A stretch of 55,296 bases of DNA from Acidobacteriota bacterium (lineage in GTDB: Bacteria > Acidobacteriota > UBA4820 > DSQY01), in NCBI GenBank assembly GCA_021787565.1, contig JAJYLT010000024.1:1-55296 (forward strand), read 5' to 3'. The position numbers and the translations under genes are program-made. Of this stretch, positions 9,036-55,296 are shown piece after piece (the stretch's first letter is position 1; each line of letters starts with the position of its first letter). Below the pieces are notes generated by a model. The model searched no databases and was not told where the DNA came from. It saw only the letters and a program-made list of their open reading frames with translations.

Positions 9036-9110
9036 GGGACCCTCCCTTGCGGCTCTTGTCCGTTAGTCTACCGCAAACTGGCCCTGCAAGAACGAACCCG
9101 GGTGCCTCCT

Positions 9111-11585
9111 CTACCGCTTGCCGGCCAAAGCTCCGAGCAGGCCGGCGATCTGGTCCAGCACCGCGGGATCGGGCATGGGCAGCCGGAGGTAGGCCTGGCC
9201 CGTGGTCGCGTCGCGCTCCACGAGGGTACCGGCGCCTTCTGGCGGAGCCGCCGTCATGGCCTTGCTGAGCCTTTCCAGGAACGAGAGCCCGGCGGCGGCC
9301 ACGCCGGCCCATCCCTCCGGCGAAGGAAGGGCTGTCGCCGGCGCGGGGGCGGGACCGGGCACCTGAATAGGGGACTCCACCTCCCTCTCTTCTTCCTCTT
9401 CCTCTTCCCCGGTGAACGCGATCAAGGGTTCCATGGCGGTCGGCTCGCTTTCGGGCGGCGGAGCGGGAATGGCGCCCGCGGCCTCCTCGACGGCCTCCAT
9501 GAAGTGCTCGAGGGGCTTGCCGTTCAGGAAGACCTCGTCGGCGCCTCCCTCCAACACCCCCTCGAAGAGCGCCTTCTTGAAGGCGAGGAGGTTGAGCATG
9601 CCGTGCTCGATGGTGCCTTCCGCGATGAAGTGGGCGGCGAGCACGTTGCGTCGCTGGCCGATCCGGTGGACGCGACCGAGCCGCTGGTCCAGCACGGCTG
9701 GATTCCAGGGCAGGTCGAGGTTGAGGACCACGCTGGCGGACTGAAGGTTGAGGCCCACGCCGCCCGCGTCCGTGGACAGGAAGACGCGGCAGTCCGGGTC
9801 CTCCTTGAACCGGCGGGTGAGCTCGCCGCGCTGGCTTCCGGGAACGCCCCCGTGTAAGAAGACGAATGGAATGTGACGCGCCTCGAGTCGCCGGATGAGG
9901 AGCTCGTGGGTCCTCACCCACTGGCTGAAGACGACGGCCTTGGTACCGTCCTGTTCCATGGCCTCTAGCAGGAAGTCCACGGCCTCATCCACCTTGCGCC
10001 CATAATCGGTGGAGGGATCGAGGAGGTAGGTGCTGTTGCAGGCCATCCGCATCTTCTGCAGGGCGATGGTCAGCCGCCGCTGGTCCCCGTCGGAGAGGAA
10101 GTGGTACCGGCGCCACTTGGCCGCGATGCGCGCCACGATCTCGCGGTTCTCCTCGTGGTGGGCCCTTTGCTGGGGTGTCATCTCGATGAAGAAGCGCTTC
10201 TCCGTGCGTTCGGGGAGCTCCAGGCGCACCTCCCCCTTGGATCGGCGCAGCAGGATGGGAGCCAGGGTGGTAGCGATGCGGGAGAGGTTCTTGTAGCCGG
10301 TGACCCTGCCGTTGTCGTCGGTCTGACGGTGCTCGGCGAGGAACCGGAAGGCGGGGCCGAGGCGGAAGCGGTCCACGAACTCCACGATGGAGTGCAGCTC
10401 GTCGAGGCGGTTTTCCAGGGGCGTTCCCGTCAACACGAGGGCGTAAGGGGAAGAGAGCCGCTTGACGCTCCGGGCAGTGCGCGTGCGCCAGTTCTTGATC
10501 CGCTGGGCCTCGTCCAGAACGATCAGGTCGGGCGCCCACCGCTCGATGGCCTCGCGGTCCCTCTCCACCACTTCGTAGTTCGTGATCTTGTAGAAGGATT
10601 CCTCCCGGTAGGCGGCGGCCCGCGCCGGCAGGGGGCCCTGAATGACGAGCCCCCTCCGCTCGGTGAAGCGGCCCACCTCCTGTGCCCACTGGTGCTTGAG
10701 GGAGGTGGGGCAGATCACCAGCACCCGCTCCACGCCCTCGCAGCGGGCCAGGATTTCCGCCGCCGCCAGGGCCTGGACCGTCTTGCCCAGCCCCATGTCG
10801 TCGGCCAGCAGGCACCGGCCCGCCAGGGCCGCGAAGAGGGCGCCGCGCCGCTGGTAGGGGTAGAGCGGCACCTTCAAGAGGCCCTCGAAGGAGGGCGCCC
10901 GGGCCCCCTCGGGGAAGACCCCGTCAATGCGGTTTCTGCGTTGGCCGTCATCCCGCACCTGGGCGATGAACTGGAGGGCGTCGTCGTAGCAGCGGACCTC
11001 GTGGCTCTCCTGGCTTGCCGCCTTGAGGAACTCCTCGAAGCGGCCGAAGGCCTCCGGCTTGAGGATGCCGTTCTCGCCGAAGAAGGACGTGGCGAGCTGG
11101 CGAAGCCTAGGGGGACATTCGCCCGCCGGGGCGAAGGCCACCTCGCGGCGAGCGCCGTAGCGGAGGTAGACCTCCGAGAAGGGCGGCCGGTAGCCCTGCC
11201 GAAAGAGGGTCTTGGCGCCGCGCCGTTTGAGAAGCGCGGCCAGGGTGAACTCGATGTGCTTGCAGGTTCCCAGAGTGTTGACGCTGAAGTCCGGGCAGGA
11301 GCAGAAGTTGTCGCCCGGGTTGAGCCCTCGGATGGCGACGCGGTAGAGGCCGCCCGTGGCCGGGTTGGTGACGTGAAACTCCGAGAAGACCGCCTCTCGT
11401 CCCACGTTCTCGAGATGGAACCGCTGCTGCCGGCCGAACTCCCTCCGCAACTCGGTCTGCCAGGCCTCCAGGCTCATGCCCTCCGGCTTGCGATTGGGGG
11501 AGACGGGGGGTCTGCGATGGGCCTTGGGCCGGTGTTTTCGGGCCCGTTGAGGCGGGGTTTTCTCGTGGGGCAGGTGCGTTGTCAT
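9111..11585 (-). CDS. SWIM zinc-finger SNF2-family DNA translocase/helicase
   Basis: An 824-residue protein with GAGGAGA before its ATG. Residues about 90-120 are a SWIM zinc finger (FCSCPDF then CKHIEF). The SNF2 ATPase core follows: motif I DDMGLGKTVQAL near 265, motif II DEAQRIKNW near 358, motif III LTGTPLENR, then the C-terminal RecA lobe (VVFSQWVRTHELL, DAGGVGLNLQSA, DQRLGRVHRIGQ) near 550-650. The last 150 residues are acidic and Pro-rich, then helical. Bacterial SWIM-SNF2 proteins (RapA/HepA relatives) translocate on DNA to remodel protein-DNA complexes; the exact target is unknown. The coiled-coil gene lies downstream. A different frame on the same strand is also open because of GC bias and is not a gene. 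Confidence 0.92.
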   Translation of the reverse strand: MTTHLPHEKTPPQRARKHRPKAHRRPPVSPNRKPEGMSLEAWQTELRREFGRQQRFHLENVGREAVFSEFHVTNPATGGLYRVAIRGLNPGDNFCSCPDFSVNTLGTCKHIEFTLAALLKRRGAKTLFRQGYRPPFSEVYLRYGARREVAFAPAGECPPRLRQLATSFFGENGILKPEAFGRFEEFLKAASQESHEVRCYDDALQFIAQVRDDGQRRNRIDGVFPEGARAPSFEGLLKVPLYPYQRRGALFAALAGRCLLADDMGLGKTVQALAAAEILARCEGVERVLVICPTSLKHQWAQEVGRFTERRGLVIQGPLPARAAAYREESFYKITNYEVVERDREAIERWAPDLIVLDEAQRIKNWRTRTARSVKRLSSPYALVLTGTPLENRLDELHSIVEFVDRFRLGPAFRFLAEHRQTDDNGRVTGYKNLSRIATTLAPILLRRSKGEVRLELPERTEKRFFIEMTPQQRAHHEENREIVARIAAKWRRYHFLSDGDQRRLTIALQKMRMACNSTYLLDPSTDYGRKVDEAVDFLLEAMEQDGTKAVVFSQWVRTHELLIRRLEARHIPFVFLHGGVPGSQRGELTRRFKEDPDCRVFLSTDAGGVGLNLQSASVVLNLDLPWNPAVLDQRLGRVHRIGQRRNVLAAHFIAEGTIEHGMLNLLAFKKALFEGVLEGGADEVFLNGKPLEHFMEAVEEAAGAIPAPPPESEPTAMEPLIAFTGEEEEEEEREVESPIQVPGPAPAPATALPSPEGWAGVAAAGLSFLERLSKAMTAAPPEGAGTLVERDATTGQAYLRLPMPDPAVLDQIAGLLGALAGKR

Positions 11586-33875: not shown

Positions 33876-34972
33876 TGGACATGCAGGTACCCGTTCCGCA
33901 CAACATCCGGAAAATCAGTCCGTACGTTCCCGGCAAGCCCACCCAGGAGGTGGAGCGCGAGCTGGGCATCTCCTGCAGCATCAAGATGGCCTCCAACGAG
34001 AACCCGCTGGGTCCCTCGCCGAAGGCCGTGGAGGCCGTTCGGAACCTACTCGGCGAGCTCCACATCTACCCCGAGGGCAGCGGCTTCTACCTCTGCCAGG
34101 CCCTCGGCCGGCACTACGGAATCCCCATGCAGCAGGTCATCCTGGGCAACGGCTCGGTGGAGATCGTGGAGATGTCCGCCCGGGCCTACCTGAACCGGCA
34201 GGCGAACGCCGTCTTCAGCTTCGGCTCCTTCGCCCTCTACCCCATCGCCTGCCAGATCATGGATGCCCCGATCAAGGCCGTGCCCATGCGGGAGCGCAAC
34301 CACGATCTCGATGCGCTCCTGGATGCGGTGGACGAGAATACGCGCCTCATCATTCTGGATAACCCCATCAACCCCACCGGCCGCCATGCCTCCTTCGCGG
34401 AGCTGCAGGCCTTTCTCGAACGGGTTCCGGGCCACGTCCTCGTGATCGTTGACGAGGCCTACAAGGAGTACGCCGACGCCCCCGACTACGCCACCGTCCA
34501 GCCCCTCCTGGCCCGCTTCCCCAACCTGATGGTCCTGGGAACCTTCAGCAAGGCCTACGGCCTGGCGGGGCTGCGCGTGGGCTACGGCTTCGCCCACCCG
34601 GAGGTGATCGCCACGCTCCACAAGGTGCGCTCGCCCTTCAACACCAGCTCGGTGGCCCAGGTGGCGGCCATGGCGGCTCTGCAGGACCAGGAATTCGTGG
34701 CCAAGGGGGTGGCGCTCAACGCCGTGGAGAGGGCCTACCTCACGCGGGGCTGCCAGGACGCGGGGATCCCCGTCGTCCCCTCGCAGGCCAACTTCGTCCT
34801 GGTGGACGTGCCCATGCCCGGAGAGCAGTTCTTTCAGGCCATGTTGAGGGAGGGGGTCATCGTCCGGCCCATGGCGAACAACGGCTATCCCCGTTCCCTG
34901 CGCGTCTCCGTCTTCCACCATTACGGCAATGAGCGTTTCCTGGAGGCCGCGAAGAAGGTCCTGGGGCGCTGA
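33872..34972 (+). CDS. hisC: Histidinol-phosphate aminotransferase
   Basis: A 366-residue class-I/II PLP aminotransferase. The start at 33872 overlaps the rluB stop; ATGs at 33875 and 33881 are alternatives. Motifs: MASNENPLGPSPKAVEAV, which is typical of HisC, ILDNPINPTGRHASF, VDEAYKEYAD, and the PLP lysine in GTFSKAYGLAGLRVGYGF near residue 226. It transaminates imidazole acetol phosphate in histidine synthesis; some homologues also act on aromatic amino acids. No other his genes are in the window. Confidence 0.93.
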   Translation: MMDMQVPVPHNIRKISPYVPGKPTQEVERELGISCSIKMASNENPLGPSPKAVEAVRNLLGELHIYPEGSGFYLCQALGRHYGIPMQQVILGNGSVEIVEMSARAYLNRQANAVFSFGSFALYPIACQIMDAPIKAVPMRERNHDLDALLDAVDENTRLIILDNPINPTGRHASFAELQAFLERVPGHVLVIVDEAYKEYADAPDYATVQPLLARFPNLMVLGTFSKAYGLAGLRVGYGFAHPEVIATLHKVRSPFNTSSVAQVAAMAALQDQEFVAKGVALNAVERAYLTRGCQDAGIPVVPSQANFVLVDVPMPGEQFFQAMLREGVIVRPMANNGYPRSLRVSVFHHYGNERFLEAAKKVLGR

Positions 34973-34973
34973 A

Positions 34974-35036
34974 AAAAGTAAGAAGTAAGAAGTGAAAAGT
35001 TAAGAAGTGAAAAGTGGGGAGTGGGAAGCAAAAAGC
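34974..35036. repeat. Purine-rich imperfect short repeat
   Basis: AAGTAAGAAGTAAGAAGTG, AAAAGTTAAGAAGTGAAAAG and similar units follow the hisC stop. Low-complexity intergenic DNA of the kind also seen after comF and before the cupin gene. Confidence 0.7.
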
Positions 35037-35076: not shown

Positions 35077-35146
35077 GCGCCATGATCGTGATCACGACGC
35101 ACACGAACGCGGATTTCGACGCCCTCGCCTCGATGGTGGCGGCGTC
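35077..35146 (+). repeat. 70-bp direct duplication of the 5' end of the DHH-CBS gene (first copy)
   Basis: These 70 bases are identical to 35319-35388, the true start of the downstream gene, and encode its first 22 residues (MIVITTHTNADFDALASMVA plus AS). The reading frame then runs on into the GC-rich repeat element and ends at 35327, giving a chimeric 81-codon frame that is unlikely to be functional. Confidence 0.95.
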
Positions 35147-35318
35147 GCGCGCTGGCGCGCTCCCCGAGGTGGGCCTCGGCCGGCCCCCCTCGGCGCTCCT
35201 CCTCGCGTCGCTCGTCGTCGCTGCTCCCCCCTGCCCTTGCGCTGGAAGGCCTCTGGCTGGGGGAACTCCCCTTCCCCCAGGCCCCCTCGCCCCGCCGCCA
35301 CCGGGGTATGAACGAGGC
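35147..35318 (-). mobile_element. GC-rich hairpin repeat element, copy 1
   Basis: 172 bases bracketed by a perfect 70-bp direct repeat of host sequence. Read on the minus strand it contains a GGGGGAAGGGGAGTTCCCCC hairpin, then AGGGCAGGGGGGAGCAGCG, a CGACGACGAGCG/GAGGAGGAGCGCC segment, the palindrome-rich GGGCCGGCCGAGGCCC, and a terminal GCGCGCCAGCGCGC hairpin. The same modules in the same order occur at 39195-39504 and 55163-55296. No coding capacity is evident, so it would have to be mobilised in trans or be structural. Confidence 0.75.
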
Positions 35319-35323
35319 GCGCC

Positions 35324-37954
35324 ATGATCGTGATCACGACGCACACGAACGCGGATTTCGACGCCCTCGCCTCGATGGTGGCGGCGTCCCTGCTGTATCC
35401 GGGTGCGCGTCTCGTCTTCTCGGGTGCCGCGGAGCCGCTGGTCCGCCGTTGGCTGGAGGAGAACCGGGACCGGCTCCCCGAGATCCAGCCGCTGAAGGGG
35501 CTGGACCACGACCAGGTGGAGCGGCTGGTCTGCGTGGACGTCTCCTCCGGCGAACGGCTGGGACCGCTCGTGGATCTGCTCCGGCGGACCCCGCCCACGC
35601 CCACGGAAGTCTTCGATCACCATCCCGGGGCCGGGGATCTCAAGGGGGAGCGCCACGTGGTGGAGGAGGCGGGGGCCTGCACCACGGTCATGGTGAAGTG
35701 CCTCCTGGAGGCCGGGATCGAACCCACCCCCTTCGAGGCGACCCTCTTCCTGCTGGCCATTTACGAGGATACGGGCTTCCTCTCCTTTCCCACCACGCGC
35801 CCTTCGGATTTCGGGGCCGTTCTTCAATGCCTGGATTGGGGAGGCGACCTGAGGGCCGTCCAGCAGACGCTGCACCGGGGATTCACGGAGGCGCAGATGC
35901 GCCTCCTGGCCGCCATGTTCGAGCACCTGGAGGCGGTGGCCGTGGGGGGAGTCACGGTGCACCTGACCACCCTGGCCCTGGACGACTACGTCCCCGACCT
36001 GTCGGTCCTCGTCCACGAGATCCTGGCCATGGAGGGGATGCAGGCCGTCTTCCTCCTGGCCTACCTGGAAAACCGGGTGCACATCATCGCGCGCTCCAGG
36101 ACGCCGCACGTGAATGCCGCCCAGGTCCTCTCGGTCTTCGGCGGAGGCGGACACCCCTCCGCGGCCTCCGCCGTGATCAGGGACAAGACGCCCGCGGAGG
36201 TGAGGGCCCTGCTCCTGGATGAGCTGACCTTCGTCCATCCCGCGGGCCTCAGGGCGAGCGACATCATGACCCGGGACTATCACCGGCTGGAGGCCACCGC
36301 GACCACGCGTGAGGCCTTTCGCGAGATGAACCGCTACCGGGTCAACGCCTTGCCGGTCCTCAGAGAGGGCAGGCTCGTGGGGGTCGTGACGCGGCAGGAG
36401 GTGGACGGGGCTCTCCAGCACGGGCTGGCGGAGAGGCCCATCTCGGACTTCCTCATCTCGCCCCCGCCCTTCTTTCCACCCGAGGTGGCGGCGGAAGAGG
36501 TCCGCCGGCTCATGCTGGAGAACAACTGGCGCATCGCCCTGTTCGGGCGCGACCTGGACCACGTGGAGGGGCTCGTCTCCCGGATGAGCCTCTTCAAATC
36601 CCTCTACCACCAGGACAAGACGCTCATGGTCCATCGGTCGGGGGGCCAGCCGTCGGCCAAGGAGATCGGCCATCTCATGCGCGGCGCCTTCCCGCCCGAG
36701 GAGCTCGGAAGGCTGAAGTCCCTGGGCGCCCTGGCGGAGGTCGCGGGCACCCCCTGCCTGCTCGTGGGCGGCGCCGTGCGGGACCTCCTGCTGGGGCGGC
36801 CCGTGCAGGACGTGGACTTCGTCGTCGAGGGGGACGCCGTAGAGCTGGCCGAAGCGTGGGCCCGACGGGAGGGCGGGCGGATCCGGGCCCACCGGGCCTT
36901 CGGTACGGCCCTCTGGATCCGCCCCGATGGGAGCCACTGGGACTTCGCGACGGCACGGGCCGAGTACTACGAGACGCCGGCGGCCCTGCCCACGGTGGCC
37001 CACGCGGCCCTCTATCAGGACCTCTACCGGAGGGACTTCACCATCAACACGCTCGCCCTCTACCTCACGCCGGATCGGTTCGGGGAGGTCCTCGACCTCT
37101 TCGGCGGGGTCAGGGACCTGAAGGCGGGGCGCATCCGGGTGCTCCACGGCCTCTCCTTCGTGGAGGATCCCACCCGCGCCTTCCGGGCCGTCCGATTCTC
37201 CGTCCGCCTCGGCTTCACCCTGCCGGCCGAGACGGAACAGCTCATCGAGGCCACGCGCAAGCAGCAGCTCTTCCGCCACCTCTCCCCCAAGCGGGTGCTC
37301 GCCGAGGTCCAGCAGATCCTCGCCGGCCCCAACGCCGTCGAGGGGCTGAAGGCCATGGAGACCTACAGGCTCCTGGAGGTCTTCTGGCCCGCCCTCAAAC
37401 TCACCCCCAAGGTGCTGGAGACGCTCTACCGCGTCCAGCAGGCCCTCGGCTTCTTCGACACGCAGTTCCCCGACGAGCCCATGGACCGGCCCTGCGTCTA
37501 CCTGATGGCGCTCACGGAGCGGCTGTCGAACGCGGAACTGGCCACCTTCAGGGACCACTACCCCTTCTCGCAGCAGACTCGGGACGCGCTCGCCCGCTAT
37601 CGCTCCCTCACCTGGCACGCCATCCGGGCGCTCACCTCGGAGGAGGGCTGCGGACGAGGCTGTGCCTACAAGGTCCTGAAGGGACAGCCTCTCCCCTGGG
37701 TGCTCTTCCTGCTCGCCAAGATCCAGCCGCCGTCCCGGCAGGCCCGGGTGCGAGACTTCCTGGTCAAGGATCGGTTCCTGAAACTGACCATCTCGGGCCA
37801 CGATCTGATCCGTGCGGGCATTCCCCCCTCCCCGGCCATCTCCCGGGCCCTGGAGCAGACCCGCGTAGCCAAGGCCGACGGCCGGTTGCAGAACCGGAGC
37901 GAGGAGCTGGCCTTCGCGTTGGAGGCGGCGCGCCGGGGCTCGGAGGAGATCTGA
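35324..37954 (+). CDS. DHH-CBS-tRNA nucleotidyltransferase (A-adding/CCA-adding type)
   Basis: An 876-residue fusion. Residues 1-310 are a DHH/DHHA1 phosphoesterase-like domain (THTNADFDALASMVAAS, VFDHHPGAGD, VFGGGGHPSAASAVI). Two CBS domains follow (SDIMTRDYHRLEAT then VNALPVLREGRLVGVVTRQE, and a second around 380-435). The C-terminal half is a class II nucleotidyltransferase: LLVGGAVRDLLLGRPVQDVD with the catalytic DVD, then RRDFTINTLALYL and DPTRAFRAVRFSVRLGF. In bacteria with this architecture the enzyme matures tRNA 3' ends, often as the A-adding partner of a separate CC-adding enzyme. No ribosome-binding site is obvious. Its 5' end is duplicated upstream around a repeat element. Confidence 0.93.
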   Translation: MIVITTHTNADFDALASMVAASLLYPGARLVFSGAAEPLVRRWLEENRDRLPEIQPLKGLDHDQVERLVCVDVSSGERLGPLVDLLRRTPPTPTEVFDHHPGAGDLKGERHVVEEAGACTTVMVKCLLEAGIEPTPFEATLFLLAIYEDTGFLSFPTTRPSDFGAVLQCLDWGGDLRAVQQTLHRGFTEAQMRLLAAMFEHLEAVAVGGVTVHLTTLALDDYVPDLSVLVHEILAMEGMQAVFLLAYLENRVHIIARSRTPHVNAAQVLSVFGGGGHPSAASAVIRDKTPAEVRALLLDELTFVHPAGLRASDIMTRDYHRLEATATTREAFREMNRYRVNALPVLREGRLVGVVTRQEVDGALQHGLAERPISDFLISPPPFFPPEVAAEEVRRLMLENNWRIALFGRDLDHVEGLVSRMSLFKSLYHQDKTLMVHRSGGQPSAKEIGHLMRGAFPPEELGRLKSLGALAEVAGTPCLLVGGAVRDLLLGRPVQDVDFVVEGDAVELAEAWARREGGRIRAHRAFGTALWIRPDGSHWDFATARAEYYETPAALPTVAHAALYQDLYRRDFTINTLALYLTPDRFGEVLDLFGGVRDLKAGRIRVLHGLSFVEDPTRAFRAVRFSVRLGFTLPAETEQLIEATRKQQLFRHLSPKRVLAEVQQILAGPNAVEGLKAMETYRLLEVFWPALKLTPKVLETLYRVQQALGFFDTQFPDEPMDRPCVYLMALTERLSNAELATFRDHYPFSQQTRDALARYRSLTWHAIRALTSEEGCGRGCAYKVLKGQPLPWVLFLLAKIQPPSRQARVRDFLVKDRFLKLTISGHDLIRAGIPPSPAISRALEQTRVAKADGRLQNRSEELAFALEAARRGSEEI

Positions 37955-39174
37955 TGCGGCGATCTCGTGGCCTTCTCGCGGCTCTGGGTGCTTTGGCCCT
38001 GCTCCTGGCGGGGCTGCTGGCAGCGCGGGCGGCGCCGCCGCCGGCCCGGCCCACGGTGGTCCTGATCTCCATGGACGGGGTGCGCTGGGACTACCCAGAG
38101 AGGGACCACCTGCGCGCCTTCGCCGCCGTGGCCAGGGACGGCGCGAGGGCCGCGCGGCTGATTCCTCCCTTCCCCTCCCTCACCTTCGCCAGCCACTCCA
38201 CCCTGGCCACCGGCTGTCTGCCGGGCCGCCACGGCATCATCGCGAACAGCTTCCTGGATCCAGAGACGGGGCGGCGCTTCTCGGATTCGGACGACGCCGG
38301 CTGGCTCCTCGCGCCGCCCCTGTGGGCCCTGGCCGAGGAGGCCGGCCTCGGCGCCGCCGTGTCGGGATGGCCCGTTTCAAAGGGTCCGTGGCGCGGCGTC
38401 CAGGCGAGCTTCTACAGGCCCTTCGAGGAGGGCGCCTCGGACGCGCAGACCGCGGCCTGGATTCTGGGTCTGCTCCGGAGGCCGGAGGGGCAGAGGCCTC
38501 ACCTCGTCATGGCCTGGACCCACGGCGCCGACGGCCCCGGCCACGCGGAGGGACCCGACGGGCCCGCGGTGCACGCGGCCATGCGGCGCACCGACGCCCT
38601 CCTGGCGCAACTGAGGGCGGGCATACGCGCGCTCGGTCCGGCGGTTCCCGTAGACCTCATCCTCGTCTCCGACCACGGCATGGCGGCCGTCTCCCGCGTC
38701 ATCGACGTGGTGAAGGTGATTCCCAAGCGCGGCTTCTACCCCTACATCGCCACCTCCGGCCCGGTCTGCAATGTCTACGTGAAGACGGAGGCGCAGCGGC
38801 GGCAGGTGGCGGCGGGACTGAGCCGGCTGCCCGGCGATGTGCGCATCTACACCCGGAGCACTCTCCCCTCCCGCTGGGACTACGCGGAGAGCGGACGGGA
38901 GGGCGACTTCATCCTCGTGGCCCCTCCGGGGGCTTTCTTCTCGAGCTTCAATCGCAAGGGAGAGAAGTCGCTCCCCCGCGGCATGCACGGCTGGCCTCCC
39001 TCCGAGCTGCCCCAGATGGACGGCATCTTCTACGCCGAGGGGCCGGGCATCCCCTCCGGCAAGCTCCTCGGCTCTGTTTCCGCCACCGACGTCGCCCCGA
39101 CCGTCTGCTCCCTGCTGGGGATTGCCCCACCACCCAGAGCCGAAGGTACTTCCCTCTTCCCTCCCAACCGCTGA
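37954..39174 (+). CDS. Secreted alkaline-phosphatase-superfamily phosphodiesterase (NPP-like)
   Basis: A 406-residue protein whose ATG overlaps the stop of the preceding gene (TGATG). Signal peptide LLAALGALALLLAGLLAARA. The type I phosphodiesterase/nucleotide pyrophosphatase signature follows: metal ligand Asp in VVLISMDGVRWDY, nucleophile Thr in FPSLTFASHSTLATG, then GRHGIIANSF, DLILVSDHGMAAV with Asp and His ligands, and MHGWPPSELPQMDGIF. It should hydrolyse phosphodiester or pyrophosphate bonds in the periplasm; substrate unknown. Its last 81 bases are duplicated at 39505-39585. Confidence 0.88.
   Translation: MRRSRGLLAALGALALLLAGLLAARAAPPPARPTVVLISMDGVRWDYPERDHLRAFAAVARDGARAARLIPPFPSLTFASHSTLATGCLPGRHGIIANSFLDPETGRRFSDSDDAGWLLAPPLWALAEEAGLGAAVSGWPVSKGPWRGVQASFYRPFEEGASDAQTAAWILGLLRRPEGQRPHLVMAWTHGADGPGHAEGPDGPAVHAAMRRTDALLAQLRAGIRALGPAVPVDLILVSDHGMAAVSRVIDVVKVIPKRGFYPYIATSGPVCNVYVKTEAQRRQVAAGLSRLPGDVRIYTRSTLPSRWDYAESGREGDFILVAPPGAFFSSFNRKGEKSLPRGMHGWPPSELPQMDGIFYAEGPGIPSGKLLGSVSATDVAPTVCSLLGIAPPPRAEGTSLFPPNR
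39094..39174 (+). repeat. 3' end of the phosphodiesterase gene, duplicated downstream (copy A)
   Basis: The last 81 bases of the gene recur without gaps at 39505-39585 with ten mismatches (about 88 percent identity). Both copies keep the frame and stop codon (APTVCSLLGIAPPP versus APTVCALLGIAPPP). Confidence 0.9.
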
Positions 39175-39194
39175 GCAGGAGGGCGCAGAGGGGA

Positions 39195-39504
39195 GGGGCG
39201 GGGCGAAGGGGTGCGGGGAAACGGGGAGGTTTCCCCGCGGCGGAGGGCTGCCTGCGCGAGGGCGGGGGGAGCAGCGACGACGAGCGGAGCGAGGAGGAGC
39301 GCCGAGGGGCCGCCGAAGGCGGCTCTTCGAGGGGCGTGGGGAACGGAAAGGTTCCCCACAGCGAAGGCTCACTCACGCGAGGGCAAGGGAAAGCAGGGCG
39401 CGAAGCGCCTGCCGGAAGGGACCGGCCTAGGTCCCTTCTGGAGAGCGAGCCTGCGAGCGACGGGCCGGCCGAGGCCCCCCTTCGAGAGCGCGTTCTCGCG
39501 CGAG
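39195..39504 (+). mobile_element. GC-rich hairpin repeat element, two tandem units (copies 2 and 3)
   Basis: Unit one starts with a GGGGAAACGGGGAGGTTTCCCC hairpin region (near 39215-39237), followed by GAGGGCGGGGGGAGCAGCG and CGACGACGAGCGGAGCGAGG, almost identical to the core of copy 1. Unit two (from about 39336) starts with GTGGGGAACGGAAAGGTTCCCC-type sequence, then GAGGGCAAGGGAAAGCAGG, and ends with GGGCCGGCCGAGGCCC and a GAGCGCGTTCTCGCGC hairpin that abuts the second copy of the phosphodiesterase 3' end. No gene is supported here. Confidence 0.75.
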
Positions 39505-39585
39505 GCCCCGACCGTCTGCGCCCTGCTGGGGATTGCGCCGCCACCCAGAGCGGAGGGTAGCGCCCTCTTCCCCCCCGACCGCTGA
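39505..39585 (+). repeat. 3' end of the phosphodiesterase gene (copy B)
   Basis: Second copy of the 81-base gene end, stop codon at 39583-39585. It is followed at 39586-39655 by a further copy of the element's first hairpin (GGGGAAACGGGGAGCGTGTCCCC region), as copy A is. Confidence 0.85.
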
Positions 39586-39712
39586 ACGGGGGGGCGCCGA
39601 GGGGAGGGGCGGGGGCGAAGGGGTGCGGGGAAACGGGGAGCGTGTCCCCGCGCGTGACCGTGCTAGAGTGGGCCGTTCAACGGGCCCGTGCGGCCTGGGG
39701 AGGGATAGCACC

Positions 39713-39880: not shown

Positions 39881-39919
39881 TGGCCCCGCCCTCTTTGCTT
39901 TCAGAATCCGGTGACGCTG

Positions 39920-40117
39920 CTAGTGTTGTGTCCCCGTCATGTGTTTACAGTGGCCTTTCCCCGGGACACAACACTTCCCAAGGGGCTCCGCCCCTAGGGC
40001 GCCCGCCTTCGGCGGGCTGTTACCCCGAAAGAGCGGGGAGGCTTCCTCCCCGCGCCCCTCCGTGTGCTGTCTGTCGCCTGCTTCCATTGTGAACCTATCA
40101 CTGAGACAGCACACTAG
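39920..40117. mobile_element. 198-bp palindromic MITE-like element with CTAG ends
   Basis: Outer ends CTAGTGTTGTGTC (39920-39932) and, inverted, CTAGTGTGCTGTC (40105-40117) match at 11 of 13 positions. Each end also forms its own hairpin: GTGTTGTGTCCCCG (39923-39936) with CGGGACACAACAC (39962-39974), and GTGTGCTGTCT (40062-40072) with AGACAGCACAC (40104-40114). The interior carries three GC-rich hairpins (AGGGGCTCCGCCCCT, CCCGCCTTCGGCGGG, GCGGGGAGG..CCTCCCCGC). No coding capacity. A TA duplication within CTAG would fit IS630-type transposition, which is inference. Confidence 0.65.
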
Positions 40118-55000: not shown

Positions 55001-55162
55001 GCTCCCTCCCCGTTCATCCCGGCGTGCCGCGCGGCCGGAGCGGCGATTGTCCCATGGCGCCCTTCGGTCTTCAATCCTGGGCCGCGCCCGGCGGCCCCTT
55101 CGCCTCGCCGCGGCCTAGGATCGGTGCCTGGCCACTTCGAACATGGCCAGGGCCGCGGCGTC

Positions 55163-55296
55163 GCGCGGGGGCGCGCTCCCAGAGGCGGGCCTCGGCCGGC
55201 CCTCCTCTGCGCCCGCCGCGCCGGTGCGCGGCGGGCTGCTCCTCCCTGCCCTCACGGTGGAGGTCCTTCGCCGCGGGGGAACCTTGCCGTTCCCCC
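55163..55296 (-). mobile_element. GC-rich hairpin repeat element, copy 4 (cut by window end)
   Basis: Follows an ATG-initiated frame (MARAAAS) that starts at 55143. It aligns along its whole length with copy 1: GCGCG hairpin, GCGCGCTCCCAGAGG, GGGCCTCGGCCGGCCC, the GCTGCTCCTCCCTGCCCTC core, and GGGGGAACCTTGCCGTTCCC at the far edge. The 55001-55162 stretch between guaA and this element has no gene. Confidence 0.75.

Follow-up and report, generated by a model that had tools for sequence, protein, structure and literature searches.

A small hairpin-forming repeat of Acidobacteriota found between host duplications and beside an inverted copy of its target

At some 20 unrelated sites in several genomes of Acidobacteriota, a non-coding, hairpin-forming repeat of 130-148 bp, here called E, is accompanied by a direct duplication of host DNA and touched by a short inverted copy of the target sequence (X'); occupied and empty versions of such sites exist, and some have grown into tandem arrays. 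We see an even chance that E is a non-autonomous element whose insertion combines primed copying and a fold-back step of synthesis. From the scar we infer one replicative event, together with its enzyme and its polarity. For many small non-coding repeat families of bacteria we know of no transposase or mechanism. The insertion mechanism of E is testable, because its scar is informative: it comprises a long duplication, an inverted target copy, and occupied as well as empty alleles in species that are 93% identical.

The DHH site and the repeat family

The window, that is, the whole stretch of 55,296 nucleotides that was analyzed, belongs to a genome of 3.47 Mb (G000). An earlier note on this DNA had reported two identical 70-bp segments at 35077-35146 and 35319-35388 with 172 bp in between, and sequence comparison confirms them; their starts lie 242 bp apart. 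The first, on the plus strand, is an orphan copy that carries the ATG and first 22 codons of a gene and, judging from the window sequence and from empty sites in sister genera, stands beside the original upstream region. The second, also on the plus strand, forms the 5' end of a gene for a DHH-CBS-nucleotidyltransferase (35324-37954, plus strand, 876 aa; Pfam DHH, DHHA1, CBS, and PolyA_pol), which is intact, as the note had stated. From the orphan start codon, a chimeric open reading frame of 81 codons continues through E (35082-35327, plus strand), and the sister genome G001 carries a comparable frame. Insertion of E can create chimeric frames such as this one.

The intervening 172 bp had been taken as a single element. 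They do contain a genuine structured repeat, but only about 144 bp are E (35148-35291), which is joined by a 10-bp inverted copy and a 16-bp spacer. The canonical orientation of E lies here on the minus strand; the repeat forms two to three GC-rich hairpins and scores 91.4 bits with the covariance model R1, and its definition is based on alignment, covariation, and folding compared with shuffled sequences (z of -2.7). The inverted copy X' (35293-35302, minus strand, GGTGGCGGCG) lies 1 nt from E and corresponds to the first bases of the duplication, termed X. On the plus strand, X occupies 35377-35386 in the intact gene copy and 35135-35144 in the orphan copy, where it abuts the end of E; the GTC at 35144-35146 is common to the host and the E end. 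The spacer s (35303-35318) leads from X' to the intact gene copy. Neither the inverted target copy beside the element nor the smaller core of about 140 bp appeared in the earlier note.

The orthologous place in the sister genome (G001, contig C66) carries the same insertion and duplication at 93% nucleotide identity. Since this genome was assembled independently, chance and misassembly, the latter a concern of the earlier note, can be excluded for the DHH duplication. The insertion predates the split of the two species because both share it, which contradicts the recent origin that the note had read from the perfect identity of the two segments. In the sister genome, 4 of the 70 positions differ between its own two copies. 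That the copies in the window are perfectly identical is due to gene conversion, to chance, or to the constraint under which the coding copy stands. Comparison with relatives had been suggested as a way to find clean empty sites, and these exist: in other genera of the same family (G002, G005, G007) only one DHH start, and no element, comes after the end of a hisC-like gene. Just upstream of the DHH site, the window also holds degenerate short tandem repeats rich in AAGT/GAAAAGT (34972-35036), which are similar in the sister genome and differ there in size.

In canonical orientation, E reads G[GT]CGAGGGGG...GCGCGAC. Thirty-two copies align over about 136 model positions, for which RNAalifold predicts two strong hairpins and one small one; in 13 of the 26 pairs, one or more sequences have both partners changed, which represents covariation. 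A longer subfamily has one further hairpin. The ends of E share merely a short GTCG/CGAC inverted repeat. The genome of the window contains 23 blastn matches to the 172 bp and 26 places recognized by the covariance model (E-value < 1e-6), and the recurrence of the intervening DNA within the window that had been noted before (39197-39315, 39462-39516, and 55155-55296) is confirmed. The last of these places holds the first E of an array that runs past the window end (55164-55296, minus strand, by blastn and covariance model; contig C73, 55164-55658). E is present in 11 of the 13 genomes of its class, in two families, and when a phylum-wide sample of 199 genomes was examined at a stricter cut-off, 9 carried it, all from this same order. 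An Rfam search of eight E loci gave no match on E at an E-value of up to 5, with only tRNAs above gathering scores, and a known structured RNA was rejected for lack of such a match. Likewise, a phage or plasmid origin was rejected, as E had no match among phage or plasmid records, and a 26-base exact core pattern of E found nothing in viral contigs.

Two other repeats touch on this family. At 39918-40117 the window contains a MITE-like repeat of about 200 bp with CTAGTGT...ACACTAG ends, which is also found in the same genome at C37:38515, C48:69160, C56:50930, and other places; its 103-bp middle resembles E in its GC-rich hairpins and a GGGGTAACAGCC-type core, and it gives weak E-model matches at a dozen or so places. 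A composite subfamily of E lies inside a larger repeat (C29:92390, C33:84251, C44:91713, and C49:16351 of the same genome, and partly C58:20114 and C60:4953), where it is bordered by a GCTTTTCGCTTGCAGCGAAAAGC hairpin and, at the opposite side, by a conserved tail; its flanking repeats measure just 9-12 bp.

Host duplications and their alleles

The expectation that duplication accompanies the element and is no one-off holds for most other full-length copies, which are flanked by host repeats of varied length. When the two flanks of each of 54 full-length copies were compared with one another, 45 had direct repeats that scored at least 19, the threshold used, as opposed to a 95th percentile of 12 for random positions in the same loci. 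This control has a tail produced by other tandem repeats (99th percentile 41, maximum 193), so that the set as a whole carries more weight than any one duplication. Collapsing orthologues and arrays left 21 independent contexts with duplications of 22-109 bp (median 64; one array outlier of 196), and the earlier view that the duplication is far longer than those of insertion sequences is thereby borne out. Copies of E that lack the 3' half are generally without duplication.

Targets comprise the 3' ends of GGDEF, thiolase (several genes), fumarase, M13-type peptidase, aldo/keto-reductase-like, phosphodiesterase, and radical-SAM-like genes (names that are readings of translated ends, except for the Pfam-assigned DHH gene and phosphodiesterase), as well as tRNA 3' ends together with their terminators; at the DHH site the target is a gene 5' end. 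Read in the orientation of E, a host sequence X-Y-z has become X-Y-s-X'-E-X-Y-z. The gene adjoining X' stays whole because X lies inside it and Y runs outward past its end, and insertion of E can in this sense duplicate the ends of genes and the 3' ends of tRNAs without disrupting the genes.

Several sites exist in both occupied and empty form. The second site of the window consists of a phosphodiesterase 3' end (39094-39200, plus strand, Pfam Phosphodiest), two adjoining copies of E recognized by the covariance model (39202-39315 and 39326-39457, together 39202-39457, plus strand), and a second phosphodiesterase 3' end with the start of a third, truncated E (39505-39652, plus strand), which is 88.5% identical to 39094-39239. 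This last part is absent from contig C93 of the sister genome, where the site is single-copy, although a short GCGCGAGG stretch there might be the trace of an old insertion that was excised. Conversely, the aldo/keto-reductase-like site is occupied in the sister and single-copy, without X', in the genome of the window. The fumarase site is occupied in both, with E shrunk to about 45 bp in the latter genome. Among the copies without the 3' half of E, G005:C212 matches the occupied site G002:C64 and is best read as a deletion derivative. Arrays of two or three units of host end plus E are found in the window's genome at C7:36672-37282, C26:4081-4821, C64:11857-12233, and C73:55164-55651, with periods of, for example, 242 bp (C7), 226 bp, and 233 bp (C64), and likely vary between strains.

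It could be argued that E inserts in the manner of a REP or MITE, with little or no duplication, and that the flank is duplicated later, when GC-rich sequences recombine or slip; we regard this as rather unlikely. Such a history would suit those copies that have no flanking duplication (the composite subfamily, G001:C81, and G003:C147), and secondary tandem amplification is clear in the arrays of C7, C26, and C64. However, in 45 of the 54 copies E stands exactly between the repeats, with one edge of the duplication at an end of E, and X' would be left unexplained. Moreover, natural host sequence comes after the second copy at the DHH and M13-peptidase sites, so that a duplication of XY...E could account for them only together with an additional, exact deletion.

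The many targets at tRNA and gene 3' ends, the preservation of the gene by the inserted copy, and the arrangement of units in circle-like tandem arrays recall integrative elements. A tyrosine recombinase would in that case insert a circle of the form Y-s-X'-E, the duplication would represent an att identity block by which the end of the gene is rebuilt, and E would be a remnant or a satellite site. We consider this quite unlikely, since the roughly 20 target genes have no common core and every duplication is target-specific, the DHH target is the 5' end of a gene, and the readable genes beside E are ordinary housekeeping genes.

The inverted target copy and a possible route of insertion

X' lies directly before E, usually within 0-4 nt, and repeats in reverse complement the 8-20 nt with which the duplication starts. 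An X' that adjoins E and maps to the duplication start was found in 14 of the 21 independent contexts, compared to 4.6% of mismatched controls in which E flanks were paired with the targets of other sites; seven contexts are without a clear X', and when all copies are counted it is present in 27 of 40. Apart from the DHH site, examples are CGCCACCGAG at a thiolase gene, GGCCGCGGCG at the fumarase gene, and, in genome G008, a perfect 19-mer (GGGATTCGAACCCGCGACC) matching the T-arm of tRNA-Gly. X' resembles the copy that precedes E (mean 10.2) more closely than the one that follows it (7.9).

Could X', E, and X form a functional RNA stem, acting as terminator, attenuator, or antisense and kept by selection, with the duplication incidental? 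The X/X' stem is present in predicted folds, E together with X and X' folds better than shuffled sequences (z of -2.7 as DNA and -3.0 as RNA), and at the thiolase sites X' varies in step with X. Yet the pairing was not maintained after the sister species split: at the DHH site of the sister (G001:C66), a GCCCCC in the downstream X breaks it, and at its tRNA-Gly site (G001:C152), where X' reads GGGATTGGAA, it is damaged. E's own hairpins covary whereas the X/X' pairs decay, and the upstream tRNA would presumably suffer from a long antisense match to its T-arm. A selected stem is accordingly a very doubtful explanation, and because of this decay in the sister species, X' is better read as a fossil of insertion. 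An artefact of assembly or binning deserves practically no credence, for although this metagenome-assembled genome is in 77 contigs and a run of N joins array copies near window position 55297, the same junctions occur in the independently assembled sister at five site types (DHH, tRNA-Gly, tRNA-Asp, thiolase, and peptidase) and a similar anatomy is found in nine other genomes.

Where E has inserted at tRNAs, the portion of the downstream copy that lies next to E (GGAGCGTGG) departs from the target identically in different genomes, and GGAGCGTGG beside E is common to the tRNA-Gly insertions of both families. This shared difference suggests a donor-derived tail. As a separate observation on tRNA-site downstream junctions (for example at loci L096, L276, and L269), the E-proximal sequence is GAGCGACGGAGCGTGGTTCGAATCC in both families and the target reads GGTCGCGGGTTCG.

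On the reading that insertion combines primed copying and fold-back synthesis, a break or nick would open the host where X begins on the left, and E would be copied at this end, be it from RNA, from a single strand, or from another genomic copy. In the same event, a 3' end would fold back and copy 8-20 nt of X, giving X'. The XY duplication would result when synthesis returns to the host at a distance of 20-110 bp. The layout would then be that of an asymmetric tandem inversion duplication whose turn-around is occupied by E, and arrays would form later by recombination between XY copies. A donor-derived 3' tail of E annealing to similar targets would account for the shared GGAGCGTGG. The simplest version, fold-back copying of the downstream junction, fails at some sites because X' matches the copy before E better, and it does not account for the shared GGAGCGTGG either; we place less confidence in the detailed polarity of insertion than in the overall reading. 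The alternative mechanism envisaged in the earlier note holds insofar as the best fit is a replicative event akin to template switching, with an enzyme and a polarity that we infer.

The inserting enzyme is probably supplied in trans. A search for RVT_1 domains gave hits in four of the nine family genomes, none of them beside E among the loci examined; they comprise a single protein of group-II-intron-like type, to which proteins in G002 and G005 are related, and, in G001, an RT-trypsin protein that is unrelated to it. A reverse transcriptase was consequently rejected as a consistent partner of E, given this patchy presence and the absence of adjoining copies. Y1 transposases are encoded in eight of the nine family genomes, and none of the eight Y1 loci examined in the window's genome and its sister has an adjoining E; one stretch (C33) has an E about 5 kb away. 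Cas1 was found in only two of the 13 class genomes and is absent from both the window's genome and its sister; CRISPR or casposon Cas1 integration was rejected, as Cas1 is mostly absent from the carriers. E may be moved by a host enzyme or a trans-acting one, or may have lost its partner. A search for a larger parent with an internal open reading frame read through one 3'-truncated copy (G004, contig C46) and revealed CRISPR-like repeats and no gene. This E, located at a tRNA-Gly gene (about 9100-9280; loci L066/L281), holds three 28-29-bp repeats of the form GGGCATCCCGCGYGAGGGCGGGGG(G)TKAC, split by two unrelated 33-bp sequences, and so looks like a two-spacer CRISPR array inside E; cas1 was sought in that genome and was not found.

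Comparison with known mobile repeats

Target-primed reverse transcription, as performed by LINE-type elements and group II introns, is a copy-out insertion that produces target duplications of variable length, and fold-back or twin priming can invert pieces. The E sites share the variable duplication length, but they have no consistently present reverse transcriptase, and their inverted piece derives from the target and not from the element. Tandem inversion duplications of the order A-A'-A in Salmonella, on which Kugelberg and colleagues reportedly published in 2010, are said to be rare, large, and selected, and to have been attributed to fold-back synthesis with later trimming. As in these rearrangements, direct copies enclose an inverted piece at E sites (14 of 21 contexts, control 4.6%); in contrast, the inverted piece measures only 8-20 nt and a specific repeat is always found at the turn-around.

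MITEs derived from insertion sequences and moved by DDE transposases leave short duplications of fixed length, unlike E with its 22-109 bp and one array outlier of 196; no autonomous copy was seen, the enzyme searches having covered reverse transcriptases, Y1 transposases, and Cas1. With REPs and BIMEs, E has in common that it is an interspersed, GC-rich palindromic sequence and that Y1 genes occur in eight of nine family genomes, the GTAG- and CGTC-tagged REPs being associated with RAYT proteins of the Y1 HUH type (PMC2817692; PMC3733652). CGTC REPs without a linked transposase are also described (PMC3733652), and relatives of IS200/IS605 make no larger target duplications (PMC2817692). In contrast to the single palindrome of 20-40 bp typical of REPs, E has 130-148 bp with two to three hairpins, CGTC-like letters are found at its 3' end only, and no E lies beside the examined Y1 genes, as would be the case for REPs with their RAYT.

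YPAL/RU-2 of Yersinia, as summarized in PMC2229807, is a structured element that measures 168 bp; its target duplications range from 3 to 26 bp, and its targets span or lie beside dyad symmetry (De Gregorio et al., 2006, in PMC2229807). Measured against this account, E is similar in its size, its structure, its lack of A+T-richness and of TA ends, its empty and filled sites, and the variable length of its target duplication (PMC2229807). E differs from the element as portrayed there in duplications of up to about 110 bp, in the inverted target copy that touches it, and in arrays that include host DNA; the comparison, between Acidobacteriota and Yersinia, is one of descriptions.

For the combined signature of long duplication and inverted target copy, the open-access literature that was searched yielded no description. 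We therefore put forward, tentatively and at less than even confidence, that E is the first example of a bacterial element which, by its mode of insertion, both leaves an inverted target copy next to itself and doubles a host stretch of 20-110 bp. If true, its fold-back-primed copy-in would constitute a pathway distinct from known bacterial transposition. Altogether, E joins the known small structured mobile repeats, among which YPAL and the REPs are the closest kinds and YPAL/RU-2 is the nearest, and it is distinctive in its insertion scar.
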